Assembly: GCA_010672925.1 (NCBI GenBank)
Contig: JAAHFP010000055.1
Span: 1 to 39,586 of the forward strand
Direction: 5' to 3'
DNA length: 39,586 nt
Origin: Symploca sp. SIO1C2
GTDB taxonomy: Bacteria; Cyanobacteriota; Cyanobacteriia; Cyanobacteriales; Coleofasciculaceae
Both the position numbers and the translations under genes were made by a program. A model generated the notes under the pieces. It did not search any database and was not told the origin of the DNA. It worked only from the letters and a program-made list of their open reading frames with translations. Below are positions 17,514 to 32,880 of this stretch, piece after piece (the first letter of the stretch is position 1; every line of letters starts with the position of its first letter).

Positions 17514-18104
17514 ATGAATCATACTTTTGGCGACTTTATTCAAGCATTTCCCCCTAATCATGATTCCTTAGAACTCAGTTTTACCCCTACATCTGAGCGC
17601 ATCAAGAATCGATGGCGCAATCAACGACTTTCAGCTCATTTTATGGCTGACTATATTGCAAATTTTTTGCCCCTAAATAAAAATAAACCAGAAGAAGAAA
17701 AGCGAATTAAAGAAATCAAAGGAGCAGTCAGCTATATTGCCAATGAACTGTTGGAAAATGCGATGAAATTTAATCTAGAAACCTCCAGCAGTAAGGTCAA
17801 ACTTGGTGTTCATTTTTTAGATGCAGCGGAGCTGATTGTGGCTATGTTCACCAAGAACAGCATTGATCTAAACAGTGCAGAGAAGTTTCAAGTATTTATC
17901 CAAACCCTGTTAGCCTCTGATCCAGAGGAACTTTATATACAGCAAGTTGAAGCCAGTGCTGAGGACGAAAATGCTGAAATGTCTGGCTTGGGTTTTCTAA
18001 CCATGATCAATGATTACCAAGCTAAGTTAGGCTGGAAGTTTGAGCCACTACCCTCAGCACCAGGAATGATCACAGTGACGACTATGGCTCAGGTAAGTGT
18101 CTAA
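17514..18104 (+). CDS. HATPase-like regulator (DUF6272 / slr1658-type)
   Basis: A 196-residue cytoplasmic protein with an anti-sigma-kinase-like ATP-binding fold: an N-box IANELLENAMKFN (E78, N82), a middle sheet, and a G-box-like MSGLGFLTMINDY (158-161 GLGF). I recall cyanobacterial homologues as 'slr1658 superfamily regulator' or DUF6272, related to SiaB-like kinases. The partner is the STAS-like slr1659-type protein encoded next. A phosphorylating or binding role towards it is inferred. No DxGxG G1 box is obvious, so ATP binding may be unusual. The 146-base gap to the next gene contains two strong hairpins. Confidence 0.75.
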   Translation: MNHTFGDFIQAFPPNHDSLELSFTPTSERIKNRWRNQRLSAHFMADYIANFLPLNKNKPEEEKRIKEIKGAVSYIANELLENAMKFNLETSSSKVKLGVHFLDAAELIVAMFTKNSIDLNSAEKFQVFIQTLLASDPEELYIQQVEASAEDENAEMSGLGFLTMINDYQAKLGWKFEPLPSAPGMITVTTMAQVSV

Positions 18105-18139
18105 CTTCAGTTCACTTGAGTAGTAAGAATTCTCAAATA

Positions 18140-18216
18140 AGAGTAATATATTAAGTGTAAAAATATTACTCTAGATAGATTACAGATCTTGGTCAATCAA
18201 ACGGTTTTGATTGGCC
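18140..18216 (+). promoter_or_regulatory. Two hairpins in the leader of the STAS-like gene
   Basis: AGAGTAATAT (18140-18149) pairs perfectly with ATATTACTCT (18163-18172). GGTCAATCAAA (18191-18201) pairs with TTTGATTGGCC (18206-18216) with one G-U pair and a 4-base loop. They lie between two genes that should be co-expressed and could set their relative levels by attenuation or mRNA processing. No T tract follows either stem. Confidence 0.55.
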
Positions 18217-18250
18217 TGATGTCAAACTATGTACAAGGAAGTTTAACCCC

Positions 18251-18604
18251 ATGAGTGTCCAAGAAATTAAAGGTGAAGACTACGTCGTTCGATATGATGC
18301 GGATTCCGTCTCGGTCAGTTTTCAAGGGGAGTTAGCGTTGGGAGGTCCTAAGGAATACGCTCCTATTAATGAACTCCTCAGTGAAATTGCTGATAGTTCT
18401 CCTGAAGAGATGACGATTGACCTCAAAGGGTTGGCATTTCTCAATAGTTCTGGTATTAGTATGTTGTCTAAATTTGTGCTGGGCTTGCGCAAAAAAAAGG
18501 ACATTCAATTAGTAATTTTGGGTTCCAATGACATGCCTTGGCAGGGCAAATCTTTAAAAAATCTCCAGAAGTTTCTTCCTAGCCTGAGGTTAGAGATGGA
18601 ATAA
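18251..18604 (+). CDS. STAS-like regulator (slr1659-type)
   Basis: A 117-residue protein with the layout of an anti-sigma-factor antagonist: beta strands, then MTIDLKGLAFLNSSGISMLSKF, in which NSSG (65-68) occupies the place of the DSSG phospho-serine motif of SpoIIAA, then QLVILGSND and a helical end. Homologues are, from memory, named 'slr1659 superfamily regulator'. With the upstream HATPase-like protein it probably forms a partner-switch pair. It is 18 bases upstream of the MscS start codon used here, so it is likely co-transcribed with the channel. Confidence 0.8.
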   Translation: MSVQEIKGEDYVVRYDADSVSVSFQGELALGGPKEYAPINELLSEIADSSPEEMTIDLKGLAFLNSSGISMLSKFVLGLRKKKDIQLVILGSNDMPWQGKSLKNLQKFLPSLRLEME

Positions 18605-18622
18605 GTTATTGAGAGGGACGTG

Positions 18623-20284
18623 ATGCAGCTTGACCTATTTGCCGTTGAACTTCAAGAAATACTACAAGAAGCGCTATATGTCCTGATTGATTTTGTAACA
18701 AAGCTTGCTGGGGCAATAGGTCTATACTTTACCTTGTTTTATCTTTTGCGATCGCTCTTTCGCAAATTTGAACGGGACATTGCTTTAGTCACGCTGAACG
18801 TTTCTTCTTCTCCTATTTTAGCTATATTTGTACTGATTAGTTTTAAAATAACTATCCAAAATACAGTGAGCTTAGCAACTGTTGCTTGGTTAGACCGACT
18901 ATTCATCGGTGGCATTATCATCACCATCAGTTATTGGTCTCTACAGTTATTTAAACAAGTTTTGGTCTACTACCTGAAGGAGTATGCTGCCATCACAGAA
19001 GTGATGTGGGATGATGTCTTAATTCCTTTACTAGAAGGTGTTATCCCCGCAGTAATTGTTTTGGTGGGTGGTTCTGCTGTCCTGCAATTATGTTTTGGTC
19101 TAGATTTAACTGGAGCCTGGTTAACTTTAGGCGGCGGTGCGTTTGTTATTGGTTTTGCTGTCAAGGATATTCTGGCTAATTTTTTCAGTGGTATTGTTCT
19201 ACTGTTAGACAGTCCATTTCAGTTTGGGGATGTGCTCCGGATTGAAACTGAAAGTGGTACTCAACTAGGTATCCTCCGCAAAATTGGAGTGCGGGTGACT
19301 CGTTTCTATATGTTTGAAACTCACACAGAGGTCTATATTCCTAATAGTGTGATGCAAAGCCAGAGGATCACTAATCTGAGTCGTCCGATTGAGCCGGTTT
19401 ATTTTTTCACAACCATTGAGTTAACCCCCAAATGTGATCTAGAACAGGCGAGGCAGGTGATGCAGGAGATCATTCAAGCTCATCCCGATACTTTGGGAGA
19501 TATTGATACCAAATTGGACTGTTTGGAAAGGTATTATGACTGGACAGATGTTGCCGATGACTTTGTTGCCAAAAAAGAAAATGGCAAGAAGCGCCTGTTA
19601 GCGGAAAATGCAGTCAATGAAAAACTAGAAGAGATTGAACAATCCCTAGAAGCGCTAATTATTACTCTTCAGTTTGTGGAAGAAGGGGGGTTAACCCAAG
19701 ACGAAATAGAAACCGTTCAACAAGAATTTAACGATGTACTGGAATTAATTGGTTTGACGGTGCTCCATCAATCGGTTCGTCGTAGAAGTTCGTTTTTCAA
19801 ACTAAAGCAAGTTCCAGCATCTTTTAATCTTGAAGAAACCCAAGATGCAGATTCCTTAATCAGGCTAGTGCGCCAATGGTATCGCATGTGGTTAAGAGAC
19901 CCCAATGTGGTAGATCAAGATGAATACGTGTTACCAGAAATTTGGGAGCATAAAATCAAACTCCTCAAGCGGCGAGTTCAGAAGTTGCACCAGAAAATTC
20001 TCAATCCACTTCAGGAAGAAACTCGATTAGATGATTATGTCAAAAGGCTAGTAGAATGGTTACGCGATCGCTTTAAGCAAGCCCGCAGTCAGTGGCAGGA
20101 ACCTCAAGTCAGAATGGAAGGGGTAGTTCATTACGAAGGATACACCTATATCCAATTTGTCCTCAACTACTATGTCGATGATATCCGTCTCGAAGATGGT
20201 GCACGAGGGATTCGAGTCAATAGTGATATTCACCGAGAGATTATGCGTCATCTCAAAGAAGATTGTCAGAGTCGAGGAGTTTAG
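18623..20284 (+). CDS. MscS-family mechanosensitive ion channel with long C-terminal extension
   Basis: An inner-membrane small-conductance mechanosensitive channel. The N-terminal half has several hydrophobic segments; the pore helix and adjacent region read GGGAFVIGFAVKDILANFFS (about 170-190). The beta domain follows, with DSPFQFGDVLRI and FETHTEVYIPNS. The long cytoplasmic part after about 270 includes a charged helical stretch (EKLEEIEQSLEAL) and an unusually extended end, making 553 residues against about 290 for E. coli MscS. I chose the ATG at 18623 (GAGAGG six bases upstream) over a GTG at 18620. Its position after two partner-switch regulators suggests osmotic-stress signalling. Confidence 0.88.
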   Translation: MQLDLFAVELQEILQEALYVLIDFVTKLAGAIGLYFTLFYLLRSLFRKFERDIALVTLNVSSSPILAIFVLISFKITIQNTVSLATVAWLDRLFIGGIIITISYWSLQLFKQVLVYYLKEYAAITEVMWDDVLIPLLEGVIPAVIVLVGGSAVLQLCFGLDLTGAWLTLGGGAFVIGFAVKDILANFFSGIVLLLDSPFQFGDVLRIETESGTQLGILRKIGVRVTRFYMFETHTEVYIPNSVMQSQRITNLSRPIEPVYFFTTIELTPKCDLEQARQVMQEIIQAHPDTLGDIDTKLDCLERYYDWTDVADDFVAKKENGKKRLLAENAVNEKLEEIEQSLEALIITLQFVEEGGLTQDEIETVQQEFNDVLELIGLTVLHQSVRRRSSFFKLKQVPASFNLEETQDADSLIRLVRQWYRMWLRDPNVVDQDEYVLPEIWEHKIKLLKRRVQKLHQKILNPLQEETRLDDYVKRLVEWLRDRFKQARSQWQEPQVRMEGVVHYEGYTYIQFVLNYYVDDIRLEDGARGIRVNSDIHREIMRHLKEDCQSRGV

Positions 20285-20318
20285 GAGCGTACTTTTAAGA
20301 AACGGTATGAGTAATGAG

Positions 20319-20397
20319 CAGTAGTAGGACTTCAGTCCAAAAAGAAGTCAAAGTGTAAGTATTCAACCAGTAGTAGGACTTCAGTCCAAAAAGAAGT
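20319..20397 (+). repeat. Two perfect 30-bp direct repeats
   Basis: The 30 bases at 20319-20348 recur exactly at 20368-20397, separated by 19 bases. Each copy contains GGACTTCAGTCC, a small stem. They follow the MscS stop by 35 bases. Confidence 0.9.
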
Positions 20398-20519
20398 TAG
20401 AAACAATGGTTCGGACTCTGTTTTGGTTATTGCAACATCAGGAATACCAACCAAATTAGTTTTATTCCCGTTACTTTCATCCCAGAGATAAATCCGTGTA
20501 CCGTGACACACCTAAAAAT

Positions 20520-20597
20520 GTAGGTTGGGTGTAACGAAGTGAAACCCAACGAAACCTGCGACCATGTTGGGTTACGCTACCGCTTCACCCAACCTAC
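20520..20597. repeat. 78-bp REP-like inverted repeat
   Basis: GTAGGTTGGGTG at the left end is the exact reverse complement of CACCCAACCTAC at the right end, with an inner AACCCAAC/GTTGGGTT pair. This is a common cyanobacterial palindromic repeat and lies between the convergent MscS and AAA_35-RlpA genes, where it may help end transcription. Confidence 0.8.
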
Positions 20598-20679
20598 GTC
20601 TATTTCACTGTTGCCAGATGAGCTGTTGCCTTTTGCCTCCCCTCACAAGTCAATTTTCGACAGGCGTGCAAGATCTAAG

Positions 20680-22833
20680 TTAATCCTCTGCTGCTTCTAG
20701 TTGCACTCGGATGATACCTTCTTTCTTCGTTAGTCCAATCTCTTGAGCAGCAGATTGAGACAAGTTAATGATTCGACCTGTTTTACGCGCAGGTCCGCGA
20801 TTGTTGATTCGCACTACTACAGAAAGATCTGTTTTTGGATTTGTTACCCGCACCCTTGTGCCAAAGGGTAAATCACGGTGAGCAGCTGTCTTTTCAGTTG
20901 GATCAAATTTCTCAAGGCTAGCAGTGAGTTGACCTTGCTCACTAAAACCAGAAAAAGATGCTGTACCTTGGGTGAGATACTGAGAATAGTAACTGTTGAG
21001 CAGTTCTTTTTCACCCTTCTGAAAGTATTCCTGTGCTTTTTCTTCGTTTCCCAATGCTCTGTAGGCATGGCCTAGATAATACAGAGATTCAATTATCCCT
21101 TCCTTACTGTTATTGTTTTTTGCTAATTCATAACTCATTTCATAAACTTCAATGGCTCTAGAATATTCTTGATCAGCAAAAAAAGTACGGCCTAGTTTTC
21201 GATAAAGTTCTTCTTTTCTATCACTCTCTGTTATTTGTTCAATTCTACTTATATATTTTTCATAAGCAGTAATAGATTCACTGACTTGATCTTTAATAAA
21301 GTTAGCTAACTCTTTCTCAGACTCAGTTAACTCCTTCTCTAAGGCATCTACATTATTCTCCGACTTAGTTATATTATCCTCCGACTCAGCTAACTTTTTC
21401 TCAGACTCAGCTAACTTCTTTTCTAAGTAAGCTGATTTAATTTCTAACTTTTGAGAGTATTGATACTTGTCAATAGCAAATGCTGTACTGCCTAAAGTTA
21501 ATACTATACCTAATATAAAAGTAATTCGTTTAAAATTTTCCCATTTTTCCTGTGTTGCCAATTGTTGACTTTTGTTTAAAAACCTATGATCATGAATACT
21601 TAAGTTTTTGTTTGCAGACCATTTCTTGGCTTCCTGTAGTTTATGACCTCGTAATAACCATGATTCATCTTGATAATCAGATGCTTCCCAAGCTAATATT
21701 TCTTTTGCATAGGGTCGTATTTTAAAAGGGCCATTGAGCCAATCTTTATTAAAAACTGACTCATAAATACGGTTAGAAATCTTTAAATTGTTTTCTTTAT
21801 TAATGACTAAACCTGATAATCGCAATTGTAATTGCCCTGGACTGTTGTCAAATGTGATTTGTCCTTGTTGTAAAATTATTTTATAAATTCCCAAGAGCTG
21901 TAGGGCGTTTTGCTCATTACCGGAGATGCGATCGCGTATTGTTCTCAAATGCTCCGGATCATCCTGAATTTCCCAGTGATCAATCACTTGCATTTGTACC
22001 AAATTTTCTATTTTTTCTTCTTCTTTTCCTTCCTTAATATCATTATAAGTAGTAACAATTAATCTGCACAGTTTTTGGGTTAAAAATGGTTGACCATTTG
22101 TCCAATATAGCACTGCTTTCAAGACTGTTTGAGGATTGCGAATTTCTTTGCTAAAGCCTTCTGTTAGTGGTTGAGCCTCATGTAACTGAAAACCATTGAG
22201 TGGGATTGATTTGCCAATATTAAATGGTGTCTTGGTTTTGTCTTTAACCAAGTCATAGGGAGTCGCAACTCCTAGCAATGCAAAGGTAAGGCGTCTGTAT
22301 GCTGATTTTTCAGCTCGTTTATTATAGAAACCTCGAATCAGAGCGAAAAAATCTTCTTTGAAGTTGAGGTTGATAACTTGATCAATTTCATCGATAAAAA
22401 TGACAATATTGTGAGTTATCTTGGTTAGTAGCACTTCTTCAATAAATTCAGTGAAGCGCTCTTCAGGAGAAAACCTCTCGCGTGTACTAGACCAATTTGT
22501 CCAATCAGGCTTAAACTTTGTCGCTAGTTCAAAGTAATTACTCAGACTGCTGATTAAACTACCATACCATTGCTCTGCTGTTACCTGCTGACTACCAATC
22601 ATCGTCAGATCAATGACGGCGCAGGCAATACCTTCAGCTTGCAGCTTTTCCATAGTTCTGATGCACAAGCTGGACTTACCCATCTGCCGGGAATTCAACA
22701 CATAACAAAACTCTCCTGCTTTCAACCCTTCGTAGAGTTCTTCGTCTGCTTGACGCGATACATAACTAGGAGCATCGGGAGGTAAACTGCCTCCAATCTG
22801 GTATTCAAAGCTGGTATAGGTTATTGTGTTCAT
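20680..22833 (-). CDS. AAA_35 ATPase - TM - coiled coil - TPR - RlpA-like fusion protein
   Basis: A 717-residue protein with an unusual order of domains. Residues 1-365 are a cyanobacterial AAA_35 ATPase: Walker [10 protein letters not shown] (47-55), Walker [10 protein letters not shown] (143-151), [13 protein letters not shown] (244-256) and a winged-helix-like end. The segment [15 protein letters not shown] (411-425) usually precedes a membrane helix, here about 437-454. A heptad-rich coiled coil (about 465-515), TPR-like helices (about 541-615) and an RlpA-like double-psi beta-barrel (622-713, from [12 protein letters not shown]) follow. The predicted topology puts the ATPase inside and the RlpA domain in the periplasm. 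E641 and H652 of RlpA are retained, but the NDRGP Asp is Asn (N678). The gene lies 38 bases after the frameshifted HTH-AAA_35 gene and is probably in its operon. A wall-remodelling or defence-effector role is inference. Confidence 0.85.
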
Positions 22834-22871
22834 AAATTACTCTGAAAACTAAAATTCATTGGTTAATTAAT

Positions 22872-24160
22872 TTACCGATGTACTTTCCTATTTTCAGAAT
22901 TTATACTCCTCCATAAAATACTATCTATGCGCTCTTGAAAATACTTCTTATACAAATTGCAGCTAATTTTTACCTTATTCTCCTGCAAATGTACTAATCC
23001 CAGACTATGTAAAACATAAAATTGCTTGAGATGTGATTTTATCTTCATTGGTTGAGCTGATTCAACTACTGTCTTGAGTGCTTTACCTAGTTCATGGTTT
23101 TCTTAAAATTAGGCCAATAGGAGCGCAGATGACTACTATAAATTCCCGTCTCTATGGGGGCTTCTTTTAACAAGTCATCAAATGAGCTATCCTGAGCATT
23201 TTTCAGATCATTTAAAGCTTCTTGTAGTAAATAAGGATGTTTTCCCACCAGATCTGTCAATTTTTCAGTTTGCTTTTGGGTCAAATGTAAATCGTGCTGA
23301 CTGATTAAATCATTGACTTGTTTGTCTGTAAATTCTGGTAAATTTATTGTTGATCCCACATTGAACGGTGAAGCATTGATATCTAGCTTGATATAGACAT
23401 CTGTTGAGTGAACAAGCACCAAGCGTAGTCTTTTCCATATCTTGCTAATCTTACTTTTTTCATGCCAAGCCCGTAACATCCCTAGAAAATCCTGGGCAAC
23501 TGCTGCATAAGGAAAAACCAGATCAACGTCATCCAAGCATAAAATGACAGGACTGTCTGCTCTTTGATTCAACAAGTAAGCTTCAAAATAGTTGGTGCAA
23601 TTCATCTTACTGGTAGAATATTTTTCATCCCAGTAAGTATTTAGCTTATTCTCTAGCCCTAGAGCTTGACCAACACTGATACACAACCATTTTAAAAGCT
23701 TATCAAGCTCTTCTAAGTCGGTTTGTTCCGCCAAACGAAAGGGTAAGTAAGCTCCTTGGTAATTCTGCTTTTGTTCCAGCTGTTGAATAACCTGAGTTAT
23801 CAGTGATGTTTTACCTAGCCTTTTAGGTGCTTTAATCCGAATCACGGCTCCCGGCTTCACAAGTTTTTGATAACATTTATCTTCAAGCTCAGGACGTTGC
23901 ACATAGATAGATGCTTCTGTGTCATTACCTTCACTGCTATCTTCTAAAACAGCAATCTTTTGCCAGTCTTGCCCCAATACCTTACAGATTTCTCTAAAAT
24001 ACTTCCTGTCAACAGGTCTGCCATTGAGGAAGCTACTGATGGTGGTCAGAGAGCAGTCTAGATCAGCCGCGAGATCAATCTGCCTTGAGTAACCCTTGTT
24101 TCGGAGGGCTGATTTAACTTGTGGGATATACTTTTTGTCAACTCTGAGGGAGCGTGGCAT
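22872..24160 (-). pseudogene. HTH-AAA_35 ATPase, frameshifted near the 3' end
   Basis: The intact frame runs 24160-23087 (357 residues). An XRE-like HTH occupies about 25-65 (SRQIDLAADLDCSLTTISSF then NGRPV), followed by an AAA_35 ATPase with Walker A APKRLGKTSL (111-120), Walker B VILCLDDVD (205-213) and KHPYLLQEAL. It stops at KKTMN, but the missing C-terminal part continues in the -1 frame from about 23099 to the stop at 22872 (HELGKALKTVVESAQP to CNLYKKYFQERI), matching the normal family end. One A lost from AAGAAAACC at about 23097-23104 explains it (restored reading KKNHELGK, about 429 residues). Sequencing error or a functional truncated form remain possible. Confidence 0.8.
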
Positions 24161-24197
24161 AACTGGTTCTGCTAGAACTACTGGAATTATGGCAAGT

Positions 24198-24241
24198 TTA
24201 ACTCGATAACAAACTCATTAACTCGATAATAACTTGTTATT
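24198..24241. promoter_or_regulatory. Putative operator: 12-bp direct repeats plus inverted repeat
   Basis: TTAACTCGATAA occurs at 24198-24209 and 24218-24229, exactly 20 bases (about two helical turns) apart. Adjoining them, AATAAC (24228-24233) pairs with GTTATT (24236-24241). They lie 38-81 bases upstream of the HTH-AAA_35 start codon, the right place for self-regulation by its HTH domain. Binding is inferred. Confidence 0.5.
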
Positions 24242-24440
24242 AACACATGATGGGAGTTCGTTGAGTTTGTTGTACCCTTATTGAATAAGGCCAAGCACAT
24301 TTAATATGCTTAGCCGTAATTAGAACAAACAAATACACAAGATTAACTGCGTATTGCCAAAAATTTAAGGCTTGACAACATAGATGTAACAGTGATTAAG
24401 GATAGAAAAATAATCCTGTACAGTCGCTCGCAAGCTCAGG

Positions 24441-24743
24441 CTACTTCCTCCTTATCCAGCTCAGTAAGGAATCAAGCACAGTTATAGTGAAACCCAAAAG
24501 ACCAAATATATCTTTTGGACTGTGCCGAACGAAGGCAATAATGTACGGCAGAACTAGGAAAATTCTCAGAAAGAGAATTTTATCTCTGAGCCTCCTTACG
24601 AGAAGAGCGACTGTGGATACAAGAGACAAAAAATTTGTCAGGATAATCTGTATCCCCCGATATTTAGGGAGCGGATCTTTAGAATTCATGAGCTTTCTGT
24701 CTTGTTTTACTGAGTGCTGGCTCTTCGAGCCAGTGCTTTCCAT
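24441..24743 (-). CDS. Possible small membrane protein, unrecognised
   Basis: A 100-residue frame with two hydrophobic stretches (ILTNFLSLVSTVALLV and the ILFLRIFLVLPYIIAFV region, then FGLLGFTITVLDSLLSWI) and a basic C-terminus. I recognise no family. No Shine-Dalgarno sequence is visible before the ATG and the opposite strand is also open here, so this may be chance. It is the only candidate gene in the 24161-25438 gap; the rest of that gap holds the operator-like repeats, HIP1-containing 20-base repeats (about 24811 and 24935) and the element at 24994-25197. Confidence 0.3.
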   Translation of the reverse strand: MESTGSKSQHSVKQDRKLMNSKDPLPKYRGIQIILTNFLSLVSTVALLVRRLRDKILFLRIFLVLPYIIAFVRHSPKDIFGLLGFTITVLDSLLSWIRRK

Positions 24744-24993
24744 AGATATACTATCTATAGGTCACATTGGGCAACCCCCCTGATAAAAAAAACTCTGAGC
24801 GCAGATATTGTAGTGCGATCGCGAATCTTGTAAGCGGCTTTAGCGAAGCGGATACTGCTAGCGAAACATTGTTGGAAATTGTGACAGCCTTGATATCGCG
24901 TAATTAGCCGTAAAAGGGCATTGTAGCAATATTCAGTGCGATCGCAATCTTGTAGGTTGAATTGAGGGCACAACCATTGAGGGCGCAAGCATT

Positions 24994-25197
24994 CATTGGT
25001 ATCAACTTAAGTTAGGGATAGCTTAAAGACTAGCTTCCACACCACCCAGAACTCAAGTTCTGGGCTAATAGCTCAAGTCCACTCAAGTGGACTGAAGATT
25101 TTAGGGAAAATTGAGTCATCTTTAGATGACTTGAGCTATTAGCCGGTCGTTTAAACGACCAGTGGGATAAGAGTTTAACCTTAAGTTGACACCAATG
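24994..25197. mobile_element. MITE-like element: terminal inverted repeats, 9-bp target duplication, nested hairpins
   Basis: The left end CATTGGTATCAACTTAAG (24994-25011) matches the inverted right end (25180-25197) with one mismatch. The flanks GCAAGCATT (24985-24993) and GCAAGCCTT (25198-25206) agree at 8 of 9, as a target duplication would. Inside are stems 25045-25053/25056-25064, 25076-25083/25086-25093, 25114-25121/25124-25131 and palindrome 25145-25160, with an enclosing perfect 16-bp stem (25063-25078/25129-25144). There is no coding frame. It may be moved by a transposase encoded elsewhere. Confidence 0.75.
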
Positions 25198-25344
25198 GCA
25201 AGCCTTGCGCCCCTGCATCAATATTTCTTCATTTACCCCACAGCAGTAAGATGGGGAAGACTATCTGTTCTAAGAATTAGTCGGGAACTTCAATGGTGAT
25301 TTGTGCCACAGTGCAACTTGGGTTAGGGGGGTTCGTCTATCCAC

Positions 25345-25373
25345 TGTAAACTTTTTTCGGTAAGTGGTATAAA
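25345..25373 (+). promoter_or_regulatory. Candidate promoter of the rsbRST genes
   Basis: TGTAAA (25345-25350), 17 bases, TATAAA (25368-25373) preceded by TGG. The -10 box is good and the -35 box poor. It lies 65 bases upstream of the start codon. Confidence 0.4.
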
Positions 25374-25438
25374 AGTAAACAATTAACAGTTTTGGGTACG
25401 CTAAACCAAGCGGATATTAAACATTGAGGATTTAACCC

Positions 25439-26356
25439 ATGAATTTATCAGAAAATAGTTATGATATCCCTGCTGTCGATCATCGCAGTGCCAAAGTTTT
25501 GCAAGGACTATACAAAATAGACGAGACAGATCTGAGTTTGATCAAGAAATCAGGTTCTCTGATGTTGCCGCAAGTGGAAGACATAGTAGGCAATTGGTAC
25601 AGTTGGCTGGAAACCCAACCAGAATATGAGCAGTTTTTCTCAGATCAAAGAATTCTCAACCATGTTCGCCAGAAACAACATAATTACTGGCAAGAGTTTA
25701 TGACTGGTGATATCAATGAAAATTACGTTAAACAGCGTCGCATCATCGGAGAAACTCATGCCAGGATTGGGTTATCGATGACAGTATTTTTCGCTGGCAT
25801 GAGCATTTTCGATCAACTGTTCAGTGACATGGTGAAAAAACAAAACTTGGCAGAAAATGAACAGATGAAGATGTCTGATGCCATTGCCAAACAGTTGCAT
25901 TTAGATGCCGGTATTGTCTGTGAAATGTTCACCTATATGATGAATGAGTTAATTTCTGGACAAAGTAAGGCTCTACTGGAAATGTCAACCCCAGTCACAG
26001 AAATTTGGCAGGGTATTCTCCTGTTACCTGTGGTGGGCATTGTTGACTCTAAACGGTCTCAAGATATTATGAATTCTGTCCTAGGCATGATTGCTAAAAC
26101 CCAGGCTAAAGAATTTATCCTGGATATTAGTGGAGTAGCAGTGATTGATACTGCTGTGGCTAATTACTTGATCAAAATTACCAAGGCGACTCGACTGATG
26201 GGCTGTGAATCAACTATATCGGGACTTTCTCCAGCGATCGCCCAAACAATTGTACAATTGGGAATTGATGTCGGTACAGTCAACACGACTTCAACGATGA
26301 TGGATGCTTTAAATAAAGCTTTTCAGCGTCAAAATCTTAAAATTGTTGGGATATGA
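25439..26356 (+). CDS. Globin-coupled RsbR-type stressosome protein (protoglobin-STAS)
   Basis: A cytoplasmic stress sensor of the stressosome shell. The N-terminal half (about 20-175) is a globin-coupled-sensor domain; the likely heme ligand is H107 in RRIIGETHARIGLS, so O2, NO or redox sensing is expected. The C-terminal STAS domain (about 185-300) contains FILDISGVAVIDTAVANYLI and GLSPAIAQTIVQLGIDV. T238 (VIDT) and T270 (AQT) match by position the two RsbT-phosphorylated threonines of B. subtilis RsbRA. The next two genes encode RsbS and RsbT, and the gap to rsbS is 12 bases, so this is an operon. What ligand it binds is not visible. Confidence 0.9.
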   Translation: MNLSENSYDIPAVDHRSAKVLQGLYKIDETDLSLIKKSGSLMLPQVEDIVGNWYSWLETQPEYEQFFSDQRILNHVRQKQHNYWQEFMTGDINENYVKQRRIIGETHARIGLSMTVFFAGMSIFDQLFSDMVKKQNLAENEQMKMSDAIAKQLHLDAGIVCEMFTYMMNELISGQSKALLEMSTPVTEIWQGILLLPVVGIVDSKRSQDIMNSVLGMIAKTQAKEFILDISGVAVIDTAVANYLIKITKATRLMGCESTISGLSPAIAQTIVQLGIDVGTVNTTSTMMDALNKAFQRQNLKIVGI

Positions 26357-26368
26357 TAATCATCGAGT

Positions 26369-26734
26369 ATGGCTCAATTAAATCAGCAACAAATCCCTTT
26401 GCAAATATCTCAGAATTGTGTAGTCGCTTCAATTCAGATTAATTTAACCCCAGAATTGTTGCAACAGCTATGTCAAGATTTATTAGAAAAATTACATGGT
26501 AGTGGAGCTAGTGGAGTCATTCTTGATGTCTCAGGGGTAGAAATCATCGATTTGACTGATTTTACTGAATTGAGAAAAATTATTAACATGGTAGAAATAA
26601 TGGGAACAAAGACAATTATTTCTGGCTTAAAACCGGGAGTAATTTCTGCCTTGGTTGATTTGGATGCGGATATCGATGGTATTAATGCTGTCTTAAACTT
26701 GGATGATGCTTTCGTCTTAATTGATACTTTGTGA
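26369..26734 (+). CDS. rsbS: RsbS-type STAS protein, phospho-serine position is Leu
   Basis: A 121-residue single STAS domain protein that in stressosomes holds RsbT until RsbT phosphorylates it. The family pattern is clear: CVVASIQINLTPELL, GVILDVSGVEIID, GLKPGVISALVDLDADIDGI and LNLDDAF. The residue aligned with Ser59 of B. subtilis RsbS (MIDSF) is L62 (IIDLTDF), with T63 next to it. The canonical phospho-switch is therefore missing or moved to Thr. It follows the globin-RsbR gene by 12 bases and precedes rsbT by 150 bases of microrepeats. Confidence 0.88.
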   Translation: MAQLNQQQIPLQISQNCVVASIQINLTPELLQQLCQDLLEKLHGSGASGVILDVSGVEIIDLTDFTELRKIINMVEIMGTKTIISGLKPGVISALVDLDADIDGINAVLNLDDAFVLIDTL

Positions 26735-26740
26735 GTATTG

Positions 26741-26862
26741 GAGGAATTTAGAATTTAGAATTTAGAATTTAGAATTTAGAATTGAAAGAAATATTATGTC
26801 TTCTGCCTTCTGCCTCCTGCCTTCTGCCTCCTGCCTTCTGCCTCCTGCCTCCTGCCTTCAAA
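26741..26862. repeat. GAATTTA and TGCCTTC/TGCCTCC microrepeat arrays
   Basis: About five GAATTTA units are followed by an alternating CTTCTGC/CTCCTGC 7-bp array between rsbS and rsbT. The 7-bp family recurs at about 32925-32957 and 38902-38990. Confidence 0.9.
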
Positions 26863-26884
26863 ACACTAGTGGCCAATAATTTCT

Positions 26885-27289
26885 ATGATACATGAACAAA
26901 GAAGCCAGATTCACATACGAGTTGAAGCCGATACCATCCGAGCAATAATGGCTAGCAAGCAGACAGCTAATCGTTTAGGATTTGATAACTATCAATGTCA
27001 AATGATTTCTACAGCAGTATCGGAATTAGTCCGCAATATTTTGAAATACGCCGGTTCTGGTGAAGTGATTATTGTTCCCCTTACCCAAGGAAGAAGGACA
27101 GGTCTTGAAATTATTGTCAAAGACCGGGGTCCAGGTATTGCTGATTTAGAGCAGGCAATGCAAGATGATTTTAGCTCTAGTGGTACTTTAGGACTGGGTT
27201 TGCCTGGAGTTAAACGATTAATGGATGAGTTTGAAATTAATTCCGAACTGAATGTAGGTACAGAGGTTGTTATCAGGCAGTGGTTGTAA
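26885..27289 (+). CDS. rsbT: RsbT-type serine/threonine kinase (GHKL fold)
   Basis: The 134-residue switch kinase of the stressosome. ATP-site motifs are complete: N-box AVSELVRNILKY (E47, N51), G1 KDRGPGI (D80, G82, G84) and GTLGLGLPGVKRL (100-112). It should phosphorylate the RsbR and RsbS STAS domains and, when released, act on a downstream partner. No RsbU, RsbX, sigma-B or diguanylate cyclase partner is in the window, so the output is unknown. It is separated from rsbS by repeat DNA but remains on the same strand. Confidence 0.92.
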   Translation: MIHEQRSQIHIRVEADTIRAIMASKQTANRLGFDNYQCQMISTAVSELVRNILKYAGSGEVIIVPLTQGRRTGLEIIVKDRGPGIADLEQAMQDDFSSSGTLGLGLPGVKRLMDEFEINSELNVGTEVVIRQWL

Positions 27290-28266: not shown

Positions 28267-28806
28267 GGCTTGCCTCATCGAGTCGATTGATTCGGGTTTT
28301 GAAGTAATAAGTAATAAGTAATAAGTCAAAACAATTCAAAATTCAAAATTATCAATTAAAAATTTAAGAAAATTAGTGGGGGCTTGTACCCAGAATTAAT
28401 CAATTCAAAATTATCTTTTCCTACATTTTGAATTTTGTTTGCGTAGCATGGTGAGCAAAGCGAGGCAAATTTTGCATTTTGAATTCAAAAAATGGTCATA
28501 AGTAAAGAGTCTATGAGAGTTTGCTGGATAAGCTTTTGAGGTCTTTTGTAACATACACCCTCCACGGGGTGAGTCAACCCACCCCTAAACCCCTCCCAAC
28601 AAGGGAACCGGAGTGAGGTATTCCAATCAATTTTTAATTCTTATATTTCTTTGACATTTCTTAAGGACTATGTCTTAATGTAGATTAACTTTAATTGAAT
28701 TTCCACAAAATCATTCATACTAACATCGCCAATGACTAACTCCAGTTCCGAGGGAGATGCTTTGGCGAACAAATATTTGTGCCAGTAAAAGCAACCGCTA
28801 TTGTCT
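28267..28806. other. Repeat-filled intergenic region without a gene
   Basis: It contains a TAATAAG array (about 28305-28325), the second 48-bp repeat (28427-28474), and CCCACCCCTAAACCCCTCC with GGGAACCGGAG (about 28580-28615), which is related to 12491-12530. A promoter for the adhesin gene probably lies within the last 150 bases but no clear boxes are seen. Confidence 0.6.
28427..28474 (+). repeat. 48-bp direct repeat, downstream copy
   Basis: Perfect copy of 27389-27436, located 160 bases after the TauE/SafE stop, so the two copies bracket the gene in direct orientation. Confidence 0.92.
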
Positions 28807-31800
28807 ATGTACCAGCAATTAGAACATTACCTTACCCAATTATTATCCCTCTTACTCTGCTGTTGGGGACTCAACCTGAAGATTACTCCCGTTGCGGCTC
28901 AATCCATTACCCCTGCACCAGATGCTACGGGAACAATAATTAATCATAATGGCAATACTTATAATATTGATGGGGGAACCCAAGCCGGAGCAAATTTATT
29001 CCATTCCTTTACCGAATTTGGCTTAAATCCCGATGAAGTTGCAAACTTTCTCTCCAACCCCCAAATCGACAATATCTTGGGCAGAGTAACTGGGGGCAAT
29101 GCCAGTGTTATCCAAGGTTTAATTCAACTAACTGGAGGTAACTCCAACCTTTATTTAATGAACCCTAGCGGTTGGGTGTTTCACCAAGGAGCTAGTTTGG
29201 ATGTGCCTGGTAGTTTTGGTGTGACGACTGCTACCAGGATGGGTTTTGGTAATGGTTACTTTAATGCTGATGGCGCTAATGTTTATCGCAACTTAACTGG
29301 TAATCCCACTAGTTTAATCTTTGACCAGGATAATCCTAGTTGGATTATTAATGAAGCGGACTTAGAGGTCAATTCCGGAGCTAGTCTTTGGGCAGTGGGA
29401 GGAGGTATTATTTCCACTGGGACTATGGCAGGAGGAGAGATTACCTTAGCGGCGGTTCCTGGGAATAATCAAGTGAGGCTTTCCCATGAAGGGATGGTAT
29501 TAAATCTTGTCCTAGATGCTGCACCAGCAGGAGGGAGCAATAATACTGTAACCGGTATTCAGTCGGTGGATATTCCCCGTTATTTGACTGGGGGTAGTGA
29601 AGTTGGTCATGTTAATTATGCGATCGTTGAGGCGGATGGTAGCGTTAGGTTAGTTAATCGTGACACAGTAGTTGAAGATGGTGACACGGTGATTGCTGGA
29701 GAAGTGACTGCCGAAGATATTACCTTAATGGCAGCAGGGAGAGTCAAACCTACGGATTATGATTTACTCAACAATAATCCGGTAGTGGTGTTATTTCCCG
29801 AAGAGATTGGGGATAACCTGGAAACCACCTTTATTGATGAAGGGATTAATGATTATCAAGGGGAAGATGCTTATCAAGCTTTCCTCTATGGGGGGAAGCA
29901 AGGGACAATTTCCCAGGTAGTTACCCATGAAGAAGGGGAGGGTATTGCTACTGTAACTCGGATGTTGGCTGCGATCGCTAATCAAGGAGGCAAGGTTAGT
30001 GCGATTCACCTACTCACGGAAGGTAATGAAGGGAATTTTTGGTTAGGCAGGGATTATGTTGACTCGGAAAATATTGGGGAGTATCAACAGGAATTACAAC
30101 AGTGGGGTGCAGCACTAACTGCGGGAGCTGATATCTTACTTTATAGTTGCTTTACTGCTTTGGGAATCACAGGAGAGCAGTTGATTATTGCCTTGGCTAA
30201 CTATACTGGTGCTGATGTCGCGGCATCGACGGATTTAACTGGTAGTGAGGCTTTGGGGGGTAATTGGGTATTTGAGAAGCAAACGGGAGAAATTGAAGCT
30301 GGGTTAGGGTTTGAGTCACAGGTATTAGCGGATTTTACTGGTAAGTTGCAGGTGTTTACCGCCGGTAATGCTGCTGATTTGATTGCCCACATTACTACAG
30401 CTAATGGGAATGGTGAAGCGGATACGATTAATTTGACAGGGGATATTACTCTGACGGCGGTGCATAATACTGATCCTGACGATGGGGCTAATGGTTTACC
30501 TTCGATTACCGATGACGGTGGTAACAAACTGACGATTGATGGTATGGGTTTTACCATTGCTAGGGATGCAGGTGGCATGACTCCTAACTTCCGCTTGCTG
30601 CATATTTTACTAGGAGCTGAGTTAGAGCTTAATAATACGACCCTTTCCAATGGGATGGCTAATGATGGTGGGGGAATTCTGAATCGGGGAACCCTGACTC
30701 TGAACAACAGCACTGTTTCTGGTAATACGGCAACCAACCGAGGTGGTGGCATCTTTAACTTCGGATATGAGGCGAATGCAGCTACACTCACCCTGAACAA
30801 TAGCAAGGTTTCTGATAATATAGCAGGCAGCAACGGCGGCGGCATTTTCAACTATGGATATGATGGTGCGGATGCAGCCAGACTAACGCTGAGCAATAGT
30901 ACAGTTTCTGGTAATACAGCAACCAACAATGGTGGTGGTATCTATAATTATGGAAATACCCCGAATGGAGCTACGGTAGACCTAACCAGTAGCACGGTTT
31001 CTGGCAATAAGACAACCAACAACAACGGCGGCGGTATTTTCAACTATGGCAATGATGCAGATGCAGCCACGGTAAACCTAAGCAATAGTACAGTTTCTGG
31101 CAATACAGCAAACAACAAAGGCGGCGGCATTTACAACTATGGAAATGCAGCGGATGGAGCTACTGTAACCTTGAGCAATAGTACGGTTTCTGGTAATATG
31201 GCGACCAACTATGGTGGCGGCATTTACAATTATGGATCTGAGGCGGGTGCAGCCACGGTAACAGTGGGTAACAGTATCATTGCTGACAACACTGCCCCCA
31301 CAGATACTGATGTAGGCAGAAGTGATGCTGATAATGCCCCTATCACTGATAATGGCAACAACCTGATTGGCATCGATAGCATAACAGCATTTAACACCAG
31401 CACCCTTGTTGGGGATGCAATGAACCCCCGCGATCCTAAACTCGCACCTTTAGGAGACTACGGTGGTCCTACTCAAACCCATGCTCTCCTACCGGATAGT
31501 CCTGCTCTTGATGCAGGAGATAACGCCCAATTAATGATGTTAGCCAATGACCAACGAGGAGCAACTAGGGTTATTAATACTACAGTAGATATTGGTGCTT
31601 TTGAAGCTCAAGGATTTACCTTGAGTGCAGTAGCAGGAAATGGACAAAGTTCCACTGTTAATACCAATTTTGCTACGGATTTACAAGTTCAGTTAACAGA
31701 AGACTTTGACAATAAACCTCTTCCTGGTGTAACTATTACTCTCACTCCTCAGGGCACAACAGCCAACGCTAACTTAAGTGATACCACTCTAATCACTGAT

Positions 31801-32880
31801 GCTAATGGTATTGTCACTACTACAGCTACTGCTAATACCACTACAGGAACTTATCAAGTAGCAGCAACTGCTACCGGAGTTACTGGGGTTAACTTCAACC
31901 TCACTAATGAGCCTGGTGCTGGTATCTTAACTATCCTAGCAGGCAATAACCAGAGCACTACTGTTAACACCGCTTTTGCTAATAATCTCCAAATCCAAGT
32001 TAAGGATGAATTTGGCAACGTACTACCAGGATTAACTGTAACTCTCACTTCTCCAACAACAGGAGCTAGTAGCAGTTTCGGTAGTATCTCTTTAATCACC
32101 AATGATCAAGGCATCGCCACTACCACGGTTACCGCTAACACCATCGCCGGGAACTACCAAGTAGAAGCTAATGCTACCGGAGCTACTGGGAATAACTTTA
32201 ACCTCACCAACAATCCTGGTGCTGCTGCGATTGTAAATATCTTAGCAGGCAATAACCAGAACACTACCATCAACACTGCTTTTGCTGATAACTTGCAAGT
32301 TCAAGTTACCGATGAATTCGGTAACGGGGTCTCAGGAGTAACTGTCACCCTCTCTCCTCCCGGCACAGGAGCCAGTGCCAGCTTGGGTAGTATTTCTTTG
32401 ACAACCGATGCTACTGGTTTAGCTAGTACAACAGCAACTGCTAACTCTATTTTAGGAGACTACCAAGTAAGAGCGGACATTGGAGTTAGTGAGGCTAACT
32501 TCGACCTGAGTAATATTTCTGCTCCAGTGGTAGTCCCTGGTGATTCTACTCTTGTGATAGTTCCTGGTGACTCTACTCTTGTGGTAGTGCCTGGTGACTC
32601 TACTCCAGTAGTAGTCCCAGCTAATTCTAGCCCAGTGATAGTTCCTGGTAACTCTACTCCAATTCTAGTCACCGGCGACTCTAGCACTAACAATATCCCC
32701 GACTTTACCTCTATTTGGCAATCAGTATTAGAAGAGTTGCCCGAGTCAGGATTAGAGGAGTCTGCCTGTACAACTGCCCCAGCTATAGTTATCAATTCTA
32801 CTCAGGAGGAGGAAGAAATTACTTTAGATGAGGAGATAGAAACCGCAATTCAACGCAATCAAGATTGTTCACCTGAGTAG
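28807..32880 (+). CDS. Two-partner-secretion adhesin with DUF4347, beta-helix and Ig-like domains
   Basis: A roughly 1357-residue exported protein. A signal peptide ends near VAAQS. The TPS/haemagglutination domain (about 35-290) has TGGNSNLYLMNPSGWVFHQG. A DUF4347 domain (about 361-514) ends in the typical ADVAASTDLTGSEALGGNW. Its usual SHG and YGC motifs read TEG and YSC here. A parallel beta-helix (about 530-930) contains six 31-residue repeats with STVSGN and GGGIYNYG, then SPALDAGD and DIGAFE. Three invasin-type Ig domains (about 935-1238), a VPGDST repeat stretch and an acidic end with two Cys (CTTAPAI, QDCSPE) follow. The TpsB (FhaC) pore it needs is not in the window. I start at ATG 28807; a TTG at 28801 is the alternative. 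Confidence 0.88.
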   Translation: MYQQLEHYLTQLLSLLLCCWGLNLKITPVAAQSITPAPDATGTIINHNGNTYNIDGGTQAGANLFHSFTEFGLNPDEVANFLSNPQIDNILGRVTGGNASVIQGLIQLTGGNSNLYLMNPSGWVFHQGASLDVPGSFGVTTATRMGFGNGYFNADGANVYRNLTGNPTSLIFDQDNPSWIINEADLEVNSGASLWAVGGGIISTGTMAGGEITLAAVPGNNQVRLSHEGMVLNLVLDAAPAGGSNNTVTGIQSVDIPRYLTGGSEVGHVNYAIVEADGSVRLVNRDTVVEDGDTVIAGEVTAEDITLMAAGRVKPTDYDLLNNNPVVVLFPEEIGDNLETTFIDEGINDYQGEDAYQAFLYGGKQGTISQVVTHEEGEGIATVTRMLAAIANQGGKVSAIHLLTEGNEGNFWLGRDYVDSENIGEYQQELQQWGAALTAGADILLYSCFTALGITGEQLIIALANYTGADVAASTDLTGSEALGGNWVFEKQTGEIEAGLGFESQVLADFTGKLQVFTAGNAADLIAHITTANGNGEADTINLTGDITLTAVHNTDPDDGANGLPSITDDGGNKLTIDGMGFTIARDAGGMTPNFRLLHILLGAELELNNTTLSNGMANDGGGILNRGTLTLNNSTVSGNTATNRGGGIFNFGYEANAATLTLNNSKVSDNIAGSNGGGIFNYGYDGADAARLTLSNSTVSGNTATNNGGGIYNYGNTPNGATVDLTSSTVSGNKTTNNNGGGIFNYGNDADAATVNLSNSTVSGNTANNKGGGIYNYGNAADGATVTLSNSTVSGNMATNYGGGIYNYGSEAGAATVTVGNSIIADNTAPTDTDVGRSDADNAPITDNGNNLIGIDSITAFNTSTLVGDAMNPRDPKLAPLGDYGGPTQTHALLPDSPALDAGDNAQLMMLANDQRGATRVINTTVDIGAFEAQGFTLSAVAGNGQSSTVNTNFATDLQVQLTEDFDNKPLPGVTITLTPQGTTANANLSDTTLITDANGIVTTTATANTTTGTYQVAATATGVTGVNFNLTNEPGAGILTILAGNNQSTTVNTAFANNLQIQVKDEFGNVLPGLTVTLTSPTTGASSSFGSISLITNDQGIATTTVTANTIAGNYQVEANATGATGNNFNLTNNPGAAAIVNILAGNNQNTTINTAFADNLQVQVTDEFGNGVSGVTVTLSPPGTGASASLGSISLTTDATGLASTTATANSILGDYQVRADIGVSEANFDLSNISAPVVVPGDSTLVIVPGDSTLVVVPGDSTPVVVPANSSPVIVPGNSTPILVTGDSSTNNIPDFTSIWQSVLEELPESGLEESACTTAPAIVINSTQEEEEITLDEEIETAIQRNQDCSPE

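Follow-up and report, generated by a model that had tools for sequence, protein, structure and literature searches.

The locus described here raises the question of whether an RlpA-like domain fused across a membrane helix to a cytoplasmic NTPase is a cell wall enzyme under intracellular control or part of a sensor. It lies on contig JAAHFP010000055.1 of Symploca sp. SIO1C2, of which a stretch of 39,586 nucleotides (the window) was analysed. A preliminary description, made from the sequence alone, had taken the product for a conflict-system-type NTPase that acts from the inside out on a cell wall enzyme or anchor. Following the domains, the partner gene and the relatives of this protein, we arrive at a different picture: it seems to belong to one of many interchangeable pairs of receptor and output genes and not to be a cell wall enzyme, and it is a new variant on a known theme, that of paired STAND systems.

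Domain layout of the protein

The frame reported earlier at 20680-22833 is real, intact and 717 amino acids long, but its strand, left unstated at the time, is the minus strand; the plus strand in the matching register is riddled with stops. Searches with Pfam and NCBIfam bore out the proposed domain order, with AAA_35, TPR and DPBB all above curated cut-offs, and the boundaries first given for the helix (437-454) and the RlpA-like domain (622-713) were accurate when set beside ours (Table 1). The AAA_35 profile scored 119.3 bits against a cut-off of 27, TPR_12 scored 38.4 against 30.1 over its best stretch, and the RlpA-like region was recognised both by DPBB_1 (residues 630-711, 57.4 bits against 28.8) and by TIGR00413 rlpA (92.2 against 82.15). 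The protein belongs to the second of two AAA_35 classes described below, and its AAA_35 domain is 50-58% identical to that of 13 other class II proteins. It carries a ten-residue Walker motif at residue 47, a Walker B motif (VIFIDEID) at 144 and the sequence TNGQP at 245. Across 14 class II proteins the Walker residues G52, K53, S54, D148 and E149 are invariant, as are G247, Q248 and P249, which we take to be the GxP motif of STAND proteins.

Table 1. Features of the AAA_35 locus and of the related frame in Symploca sp. SIO2E6. Positions refer to the window unless a locus is named.
Feature	Position	Strand	Basis
Class II AAA_35 gene: AAA_35-TM-coiled coil-TPR-DPBB, 717 aa	20680..22833	-	ORF + Pfam + NCBIfam
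AAA_35 STAND-type NTPase, residues 15-362	21748..22791	-	Pfam
Linker after AAA_35, residues 363-436, RFLNKSQ from residue 417	21526..21747	-	sequence
Membrane helix, residues 437-455	21469..21525	-	hydropathy + position in class II proteins
Heptad coiled coil	21277..21459	-	inferred from heptad repeat; 21-nt tandem repeats 21304-21450
TPR repeats, residues 543-606	21016..21207	-	Pfam
RlpA-type double-psi beta-barrel (DPBB), residues 623-714	20692..20967	-	Pfam + NCBIfam
Class I partner: weak HTH match + AAA_35, 357 aa, cut by frame change near 3' end	23087..24160	-	Pfam
Rest of the class I partner, coding for the end of its AAA_35, other frame	22932..23086	-	AAA_35 search
Stretch with AAA_35 pair, 5.1 kb, absent from congener G390	20288..25417	.	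comparison with G390
MscS-like channel gene, flank of pair	18620-20284	+	comparison with G390
Protoglobin-STAS gene, other flank of pair	25439-26356	+	comparison with G390
Dispersed repeat, about 100 bp, many copies in genus, downstream of pair	20498..20613	.
Dispersed repeat, about 240 bp, many copies in genus, upstream of pair	24977..25234	.
C-terminal half of TIR + helix + TPR + DPBB frame	L118 198-1223	+	Symploca sp. SIO2E6 MAG

The hydropathy peak at the helix is 1.87, the next best value outside residues 416-460 being 1.16; its height was matched by 95 of 1000 whole-protein shuffles and is therefore not significant on hydropathy alone. The helix is supported by its position, because 61 of 84 class II proteins, this one among them, have a helix directly past AAA_35 (hydropathy of 1.6 or more; L087, in which AAA_35 comes last, was left out of the count), and the membrane-crossing layout thus stands. 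The stretch between the helix and the TPR repeats is encoded in tandem repeats of 21 nt (7 aa).

The RlpA-like domain

We aligned the DPBB with 32 relatives, of which 29 came from other genomes, two from this genome and one from Symploca. The aspartate of the NDRGP motif, present in all 32 relatives, is an asparagine (N678) in the window protein, and that of the DLS motif, present in 31 of the 32, is likewise an asparagine (N690). In addition, the motif TASGE reads TASLE, its G being invariant in the relatives. Of the RlpA-type site the window protein retains H652, a histidine in all 32, and E641. The aspartate of NDRGP is presumably catalytic in RlpA, and we assume, rather than compute by superposition, that N678 is the position corresponding to Asp82 of expansin. 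According to PMC5072189, the active aspartates are Asp82 and the residues matching it in GH45 enzymes and in the lytic transglycosylase MltA, an Asp308 equivalent is named, and the bacterial expansin BsExlx1 is inactivated by the change of Asp82 to Asn. The proposal of a controlled cell wall enzyme loses its footing here, as the aspartate common to all relatives is replaced by asparagine, the residue that inactivates the expansin at what is presumably the corresponding position. A DPBB with such an aspartate need not be an enzyme either, since the papain inhibitor 5ntb keeps a similarly placed one.

The likeness to RlpA lytic transglycosylases (TIGR00413) is nonetheless clear, and the domain also matches the solved RlpA relative 4avr (PA4485) with a phmmer E-value of 2.7e-21. 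It differs from RlpA in the Asp-to-Asn change, in TASLE, in its fusion behind an NTPase and a helix, and in the absence of a SPOR match at E 1 or better in a profile search of the protein. A C-terminal SPOR domain is a feature of RlpA (PMC6895207), though some RlpA-family proteins have none. Compared with the related frame L118 of Symploca sp. SIO2E6, the DPBB has a dN/dS of 0.72 and the TPR part one of 0.35, so that constraint on the former may be relaxed or changing. From these substitutions we favour the reading that the domain is non-catalytic and would bind without cutting. Among solved proteins, PDB 8kea chain A, named 'hub' and judging by its name probably a phage protein, has an RlpA-type DPBB in which the NDRG motif is kept.

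Two classes of AAA_35 proteins

The genome (8.67 Mb, 245 contigs) contains 58 AAA_35 matches, fragments included, in two score classes, and 14 control genomes contain none. Strong-scoring class I proteins consist of an output domain followed by a C-terminal AAA_35; the weaker-scoring class II proteins mostly have an N-terminal AAA_35, usually a helix, and a variable C-terminal domain. Fifteen class I proteins, two of them from named plasmids, were scanned for N-terminal domains, yielding HTH, HTH-TIR, trypsin-TIR, CHAT, PNP_UDP, Pkinase and sigma70_r4, with no domain match in three (L087, L096, L102). The score limit gave 22 class II loci in the window's own genome, whose variable parts comprise WD40, Peripla_BP_6, TPR-COP23, trypsin-COP23, CHAT, CHASE2, GUN4, GAF, Macro, a dynamin-like domain and the DPBB; only AAA_35 was matched in L093, and L100, L102 and L106 lay outside the domain scan. 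AAA_35 comes last in four of these loci (L087, L100, L102, L106), preceded in L087 by receiver and PAS domains.

To these we added the 60 best-ranked class II places outside the own genome, a set biased towards near relatives of the window AAA_35 and drawn from a search that scored two candidates per genome (another scored up to nine), so that absence from it weighs little. Their C-termini are WD40-type in 37 cases (32 by motif, five by Pfam), GUN4 in six, CHASE2 in four, Peripla_BP_6 in three, and trypsin-COP23, GAF, histidine kinase, FHA and protein kinase in one each; four had no match over the cut-off and one was too short for scanning. The 27 C-termini scanned with Pfam contain no wall domain, the 32 motif-called WD40 proteins having been checked for extra domains by local DPBB and Amidase_3 profiles only. 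With these local profiles, DPBB was found among 84 class II proteins solely in the window protein and Amidase_3 solely in a protein of plasmid pNsp_e of Nostoc sp. ATCC 53789. The common cyanobacterial AAA_35 (PF14516)-TM-WD40 type shares with our protein the AAA_35 domain, the linker, the helix position and often the location beside a class I gene, whereas the C-terminal part of our protein is coil-TPR-DPBB and not WD40.

The pNsp_e protein (L051 6001-10329, plus strand) is a class II AAA_35-TM-WD40 protein that ends in Amidase_3, and its gene has as neighbours a class I gene of the trypsin-TIR-AAA_35 type and a member of the CU044_2847 family. Its zinc-ligand and catalytic motifs look kept. 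This fusion looks rare, since a search of 60 genomes of the order with the amidase domain listed no match in a frame longer than 740 aa.

Pairing of class I and class II genes

With gaps of -300 to 1500 bp allowed, a class I gene precedes the class II gene on the same strand in 14 of the 22 own-genome class II loci and in 36 of the 60 from other genomes, which together with two named plasmid loci makes 52 pairs; 24 of the 60, some at contig ends, are without a partner within these limits. The frameshifted class I gene of the window is directly upstream of the class II gene on the same strand with a gap of 251 bp. The first suggestion of an NTPase in the style of conflict systems is supported, in that the locus pairs a class II AAA_35 with another AAA_35 gene. 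The AAA_35 distances of the two classes are correlated over 48 pairs (Mantel r 0.77, p 0.0001), four pairs with short domains (L086, L092, L095, L168) having been left out, and nearest neighbours agree in 24 of the 48. With one pair per genome the correlation was 0.645 (32 pairs, p 0.0001); within the own genome it was 0.90 (11 pairs), or 0.52 (10 pairs, p 0.02) without the divergent L096. Judging from these sequence distances, the pairs tend to be inherited as units, and shared species history may account for part of the cross-genome correlation.

Topology

Lysine and arginine in the 20 residues before the helix outnumber those in the 20 after it in 50 of the 61 class II proteins with a helix, equal them in six and are fewer in five. 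An earlier, narrower motif had found the helix in 20 of 26 class II proteins, with more K+R before it in 17, equal numbers in two and fewer in one. The window protein has five on either side, so that charge speaks for neither orientation of its own helix. Domains were then sorted by the side of the membrane on which they generally occur. A helix precedes those of extracytoplasmic type in 13 of 14 proteins (Peripla_BP_6 4/4, CHASE2 5/6, COP23/trypsin 3/3, amidase 1/1) and those of cytoplasmic type in none of seven (two GAF, Macro, histidine kinase, FHA, kinase, dynamin). With hydropathy values of 1.55 and 1.56, one CHASE2 protein and the FHA protein narrowly miss the 1.6 threshold. GUN4, a tetrapyrrole-binding domain not known as extracytoplasmic, follows the helix in five of seven class II proteins (L133, L157, L165, L170, L095) and so appears on an unexpected side.

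Rarity of the fusion and mobility of its tail

We queried 130 genomes of the order, the own one included, with the DPBB and scored all first-look candidates. Among the matches listed the window frame measures 718 aa from stop to stop, the next longest is 518 aa, and none besides the window lies in a frame above that length. A search of 20 genomes of the family gave, leaving the own genome aside, a best match of 62% identity in a 347-aa frame of G389, the remaining listed ones being at most 52% identical. A scan of GTDB contigs with two TPR-DPBB peptide patterns found one relative locus, L118 of Symploca sp. SIO2E6, which is placed in the same genus as the window genome; the locus is on the same contig as the 347-aa match. 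Its TPR-DPBB part is about 59-62% identical to that of the window protein and stands behind a hydrophobic stretch there too, but in place of AAA_35 it has the C-terminal half of a TIR domain, and it keeps the aspartate (NDNGP). The stretch before the tail aligns, at up to 62% identity, with the class I part that ends the TIR domain; the N-terminal TIR half is absent from the frame and Pfam makes no TIR call in the short remnant. Since it also follows this TIR remnant, the TM-TPR-DPBB tail is a movable module, which within a single genus has either of two cytoplasmic signalling domains in front of it.

Three scans of viral contigs (with the DPBB, the whole protein and the class II AAA_35 alignment) gave no relatives. 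Among plasmids, 102 records had a DPBB match, and the 40 listed are RlpA, hypothetical or unannotated proteins, none of them AAA_35. The architecture called unusual in the preliminary description has kept that standing, no second AAA_35-DPBB fusion having turned up in the searches made.

History of the locus

In the congener G390 the AAA_35 pair is absent, and about 130 bp separate the genes that flank it in the window. The dispersed repeats on both sides (Table 1) possibly had a role in the movement of the pair. Nearest in sequence to the window pair are, in G389, a class I gene and the initial part of a class II gene (81% and 85% identical), the contig ending inside the latter, before the tail. 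This pair is not directly beside the flanking genes of the window; frames that we named by eye as ketol-acid reductoisomerase-like and histidine-tRNA ligase-like lie about 4.5 kb from it. The class I copy of G389 is intact, while that of the window is frameshifted. In this comparison class I has a dN/dS of 0.26 and the AAA_35 part of class II one of 0.22, so that both were under purifying selection. The HTH matches of the window class I protein fall short of the Pfam cut-offs, at 18.4 bits (cut-off 22) and 18.1 bits (cut-off 23), and the class I relatives L090 and L095 pass them. PADLOC gave no match at 0.01 for the class II protein and only PDC-S01 (E 0.002) for class I. Rfam found only a tRNA in the window, and promoter and terminator scans of it gave no more than shuffles did.

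A proposed split receptor and its alternatives

We favour a non-catalytic envelope sensor working from the outside in over a controlled wall enzyme, because receptor domains (Peripla_BP_6, CHASE2, GAF) are found at class II C-termini. The scheme that we put forward, tentatively and with a likelihood a little short of even, is a split transmembrane STAND receptor in which class II senses across the membrane and the output comes from class I. In the periplasm, the TPR-DPBB, having lost its cutting activity, may bind glycan or a wall-associated protein; through the coiled coil and a single membrane helix it would be joined to the cytoplasmic AAA_35 NTPase, and the latter would be switched when a ligand binds or the wall changes. 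The switched class II protein would then engage the neighbouring class I protein by AAA_35-AAA_35 contact, and the N-terminal domain of the latter (in the window a weakly matched, probable HTH) would provide the output. We infer sidedness, binding, heteromeric assembly, signal direction and output, and our confidence is limited by the fact that direction is argued from domain company and not from experiment. Counting against the sensor are the enzymes at class II C-termini (trypsin, CHAT, histidine kinase, Amidase_3), the frameshifted partner with its sub-cut-off HTH, GUN4 behind the helix and the 24 unpaired loci of 60. As for the broken class I gene, its output may be lost or supplied by another class I protein, or the break may be a sequence error.

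The opposite direction, that of the preliminary description, would have a cytoplasmic AAA_35 sense an intracellular trigger and switch a periplasmic wall-acting domain, leading to lysis, division arrest or control of the septum. This direction is disfavoured by the receptor domains at the equivalent position of other class II proteins, and the Nostoc plasmid amidase is a contrary case; we think it unlikely and retain it mainly on account of that amidase. Wall domains do occur twice at class II C-termini (the window DPBB, and the Amidase_3 with motifs apparently intact), trypsin and CHAT are found there as well, and H652 and E641 are conserved in the DPBB. Furthermore, PMC7159879 reports wall-cutting effectors of lysozyme-like and papain-like type for another conflict system. 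The loss of the invariant RlpA aspartate tells against a switched wall enzyme, as do the 27 Pfam-scanned C-termini free of wall domains and the occurrence of DPBB and Amidase_3 in a single protein each of the 84. A decaying or accidental chimera, that is, a mobile AAA_35 pair that gained an RlpA-like tail and, with its partner broken, has no present function, is doubtful too. The frameshift, the absence of the pair stretch from G390 with dispersed repeats on both sides, the DPBB dN/dS and the half TIR domain of the SIO2E6 frame would all agree with it, yet the 717-codon frame is intact, the low dN/dS of both genes against G389, where class I is intact, argues for constraint, and the TPR-DPBB module has been retained in two lineages at 62% identity. 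Finally, the DPBB might be a static tether that merely anchors the NTPase to the wall or septum while the trigger is cytoplasmic. A non-catalytic DPBB with a long coiled coil and TPR would suit anchoring; this is nevertheless quite improbable in our estimate, as class II proteins with soluble GAF sensors (L091, L125) have no helix and Peripla_BP_6 or CHASE2 at the same position suggests ligand sensing.

If the split receptor is right, cyanobacteria possess a large family of two-protein, membrane-crossing STAND receptors with sensor and output on separate NTPases, and the use of a non-catalytic cell wall domain as sensor would tie wall integrity to an immune-type switch. With 52 pairs at hand the idea is directly testable. 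A bolder extension, to which we give little credence, is that paired AAA_35 proteins are split NLR-like receptors with a cartridge-like ectodomain and that the dead RlpA is an integrated decoy or wall-damage gauge; such a domain would bind what the cell's RlpA binds and report a phage or predator attack on the wall.

Closest described systems

In the literature searched, with most subscription journals outside its coverage, we found neither AAA_35 pairing nor an AAA_35-RlpA fusion described. Our guess is that the AAA_35 proteins correspond to the Npun2340/2341 family. An 'Npun2340/2341 family' of STAND NTPases is mentioned in PMC8195603, which also describes nSTAND2, a system of two adjacent genes with STAND NTPase cores in both and variable fused domains. 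The window likewise has AAA_35 in both neighbouring genes; nSTAND2, however, belongs to another NTPase family and, according to the same source, has a partner with eroded NTP-binding motifs and GT4 or HEPN effectors. In contrast, the class II protein keeps Walker A and B and has a helix and an extracytoplasmic-type domain, and Pfam finds GT4 or HEPN in neither gene of the pair.

The EACC1 system, as given in PMC7159879, resembles the AAA_35 pair in its two genes, its membrane association and its variable C-terminal domains, which include a TM with an extracellular periplasmic-binding-protein domain. Its core is EACC1 plus a caspase and not paired AAA_35, and Pfam finds no caspase-type peptidase in either gene of the window pair. 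The iSTAND ternary systems treated in the same paper differ in being MoxR-vWA based with an inactive STAND. A subset of them is said there to work probably near the membrane and perhaps to contact the cell wall; the idea that STAND systems touch the wall is thus not new, though the word RlpA occurs 0 times in the text of PMC7159879. STAND sensors diversified by DGR, one of them predicted to be periplasmic, appear in PMC10907252.

Neighbouring genes

The genes around the pair form surroundings of their own. On one side, a slr1658-family regulator (SiaB-like), a slr1659-family STAS protein and the MscS-like channel stand in a row on the plus strand (17514-20284). On the other, a protoglobin-STAS protein, a STAS protein and a HATPase_c anti-sigma-type kinase follow each other at 25439-27289 (plus strand), and this trio looks like a globin-coupled stressosome set, RsbR/RsbS/RsbT-like by resemblance. 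In G390 the slr1658/slr1659/MscS row directly adjoins the stressosome genes; the AAA_35 pair of the window thus sits inside a partner-switching cluster. Further along, a plus-strand frame of 1359 aa (28801-32880) with a TPS secretion domain, DUF4347 and Big_1 repeats probably encodes a two-partner-secreted surface protein.
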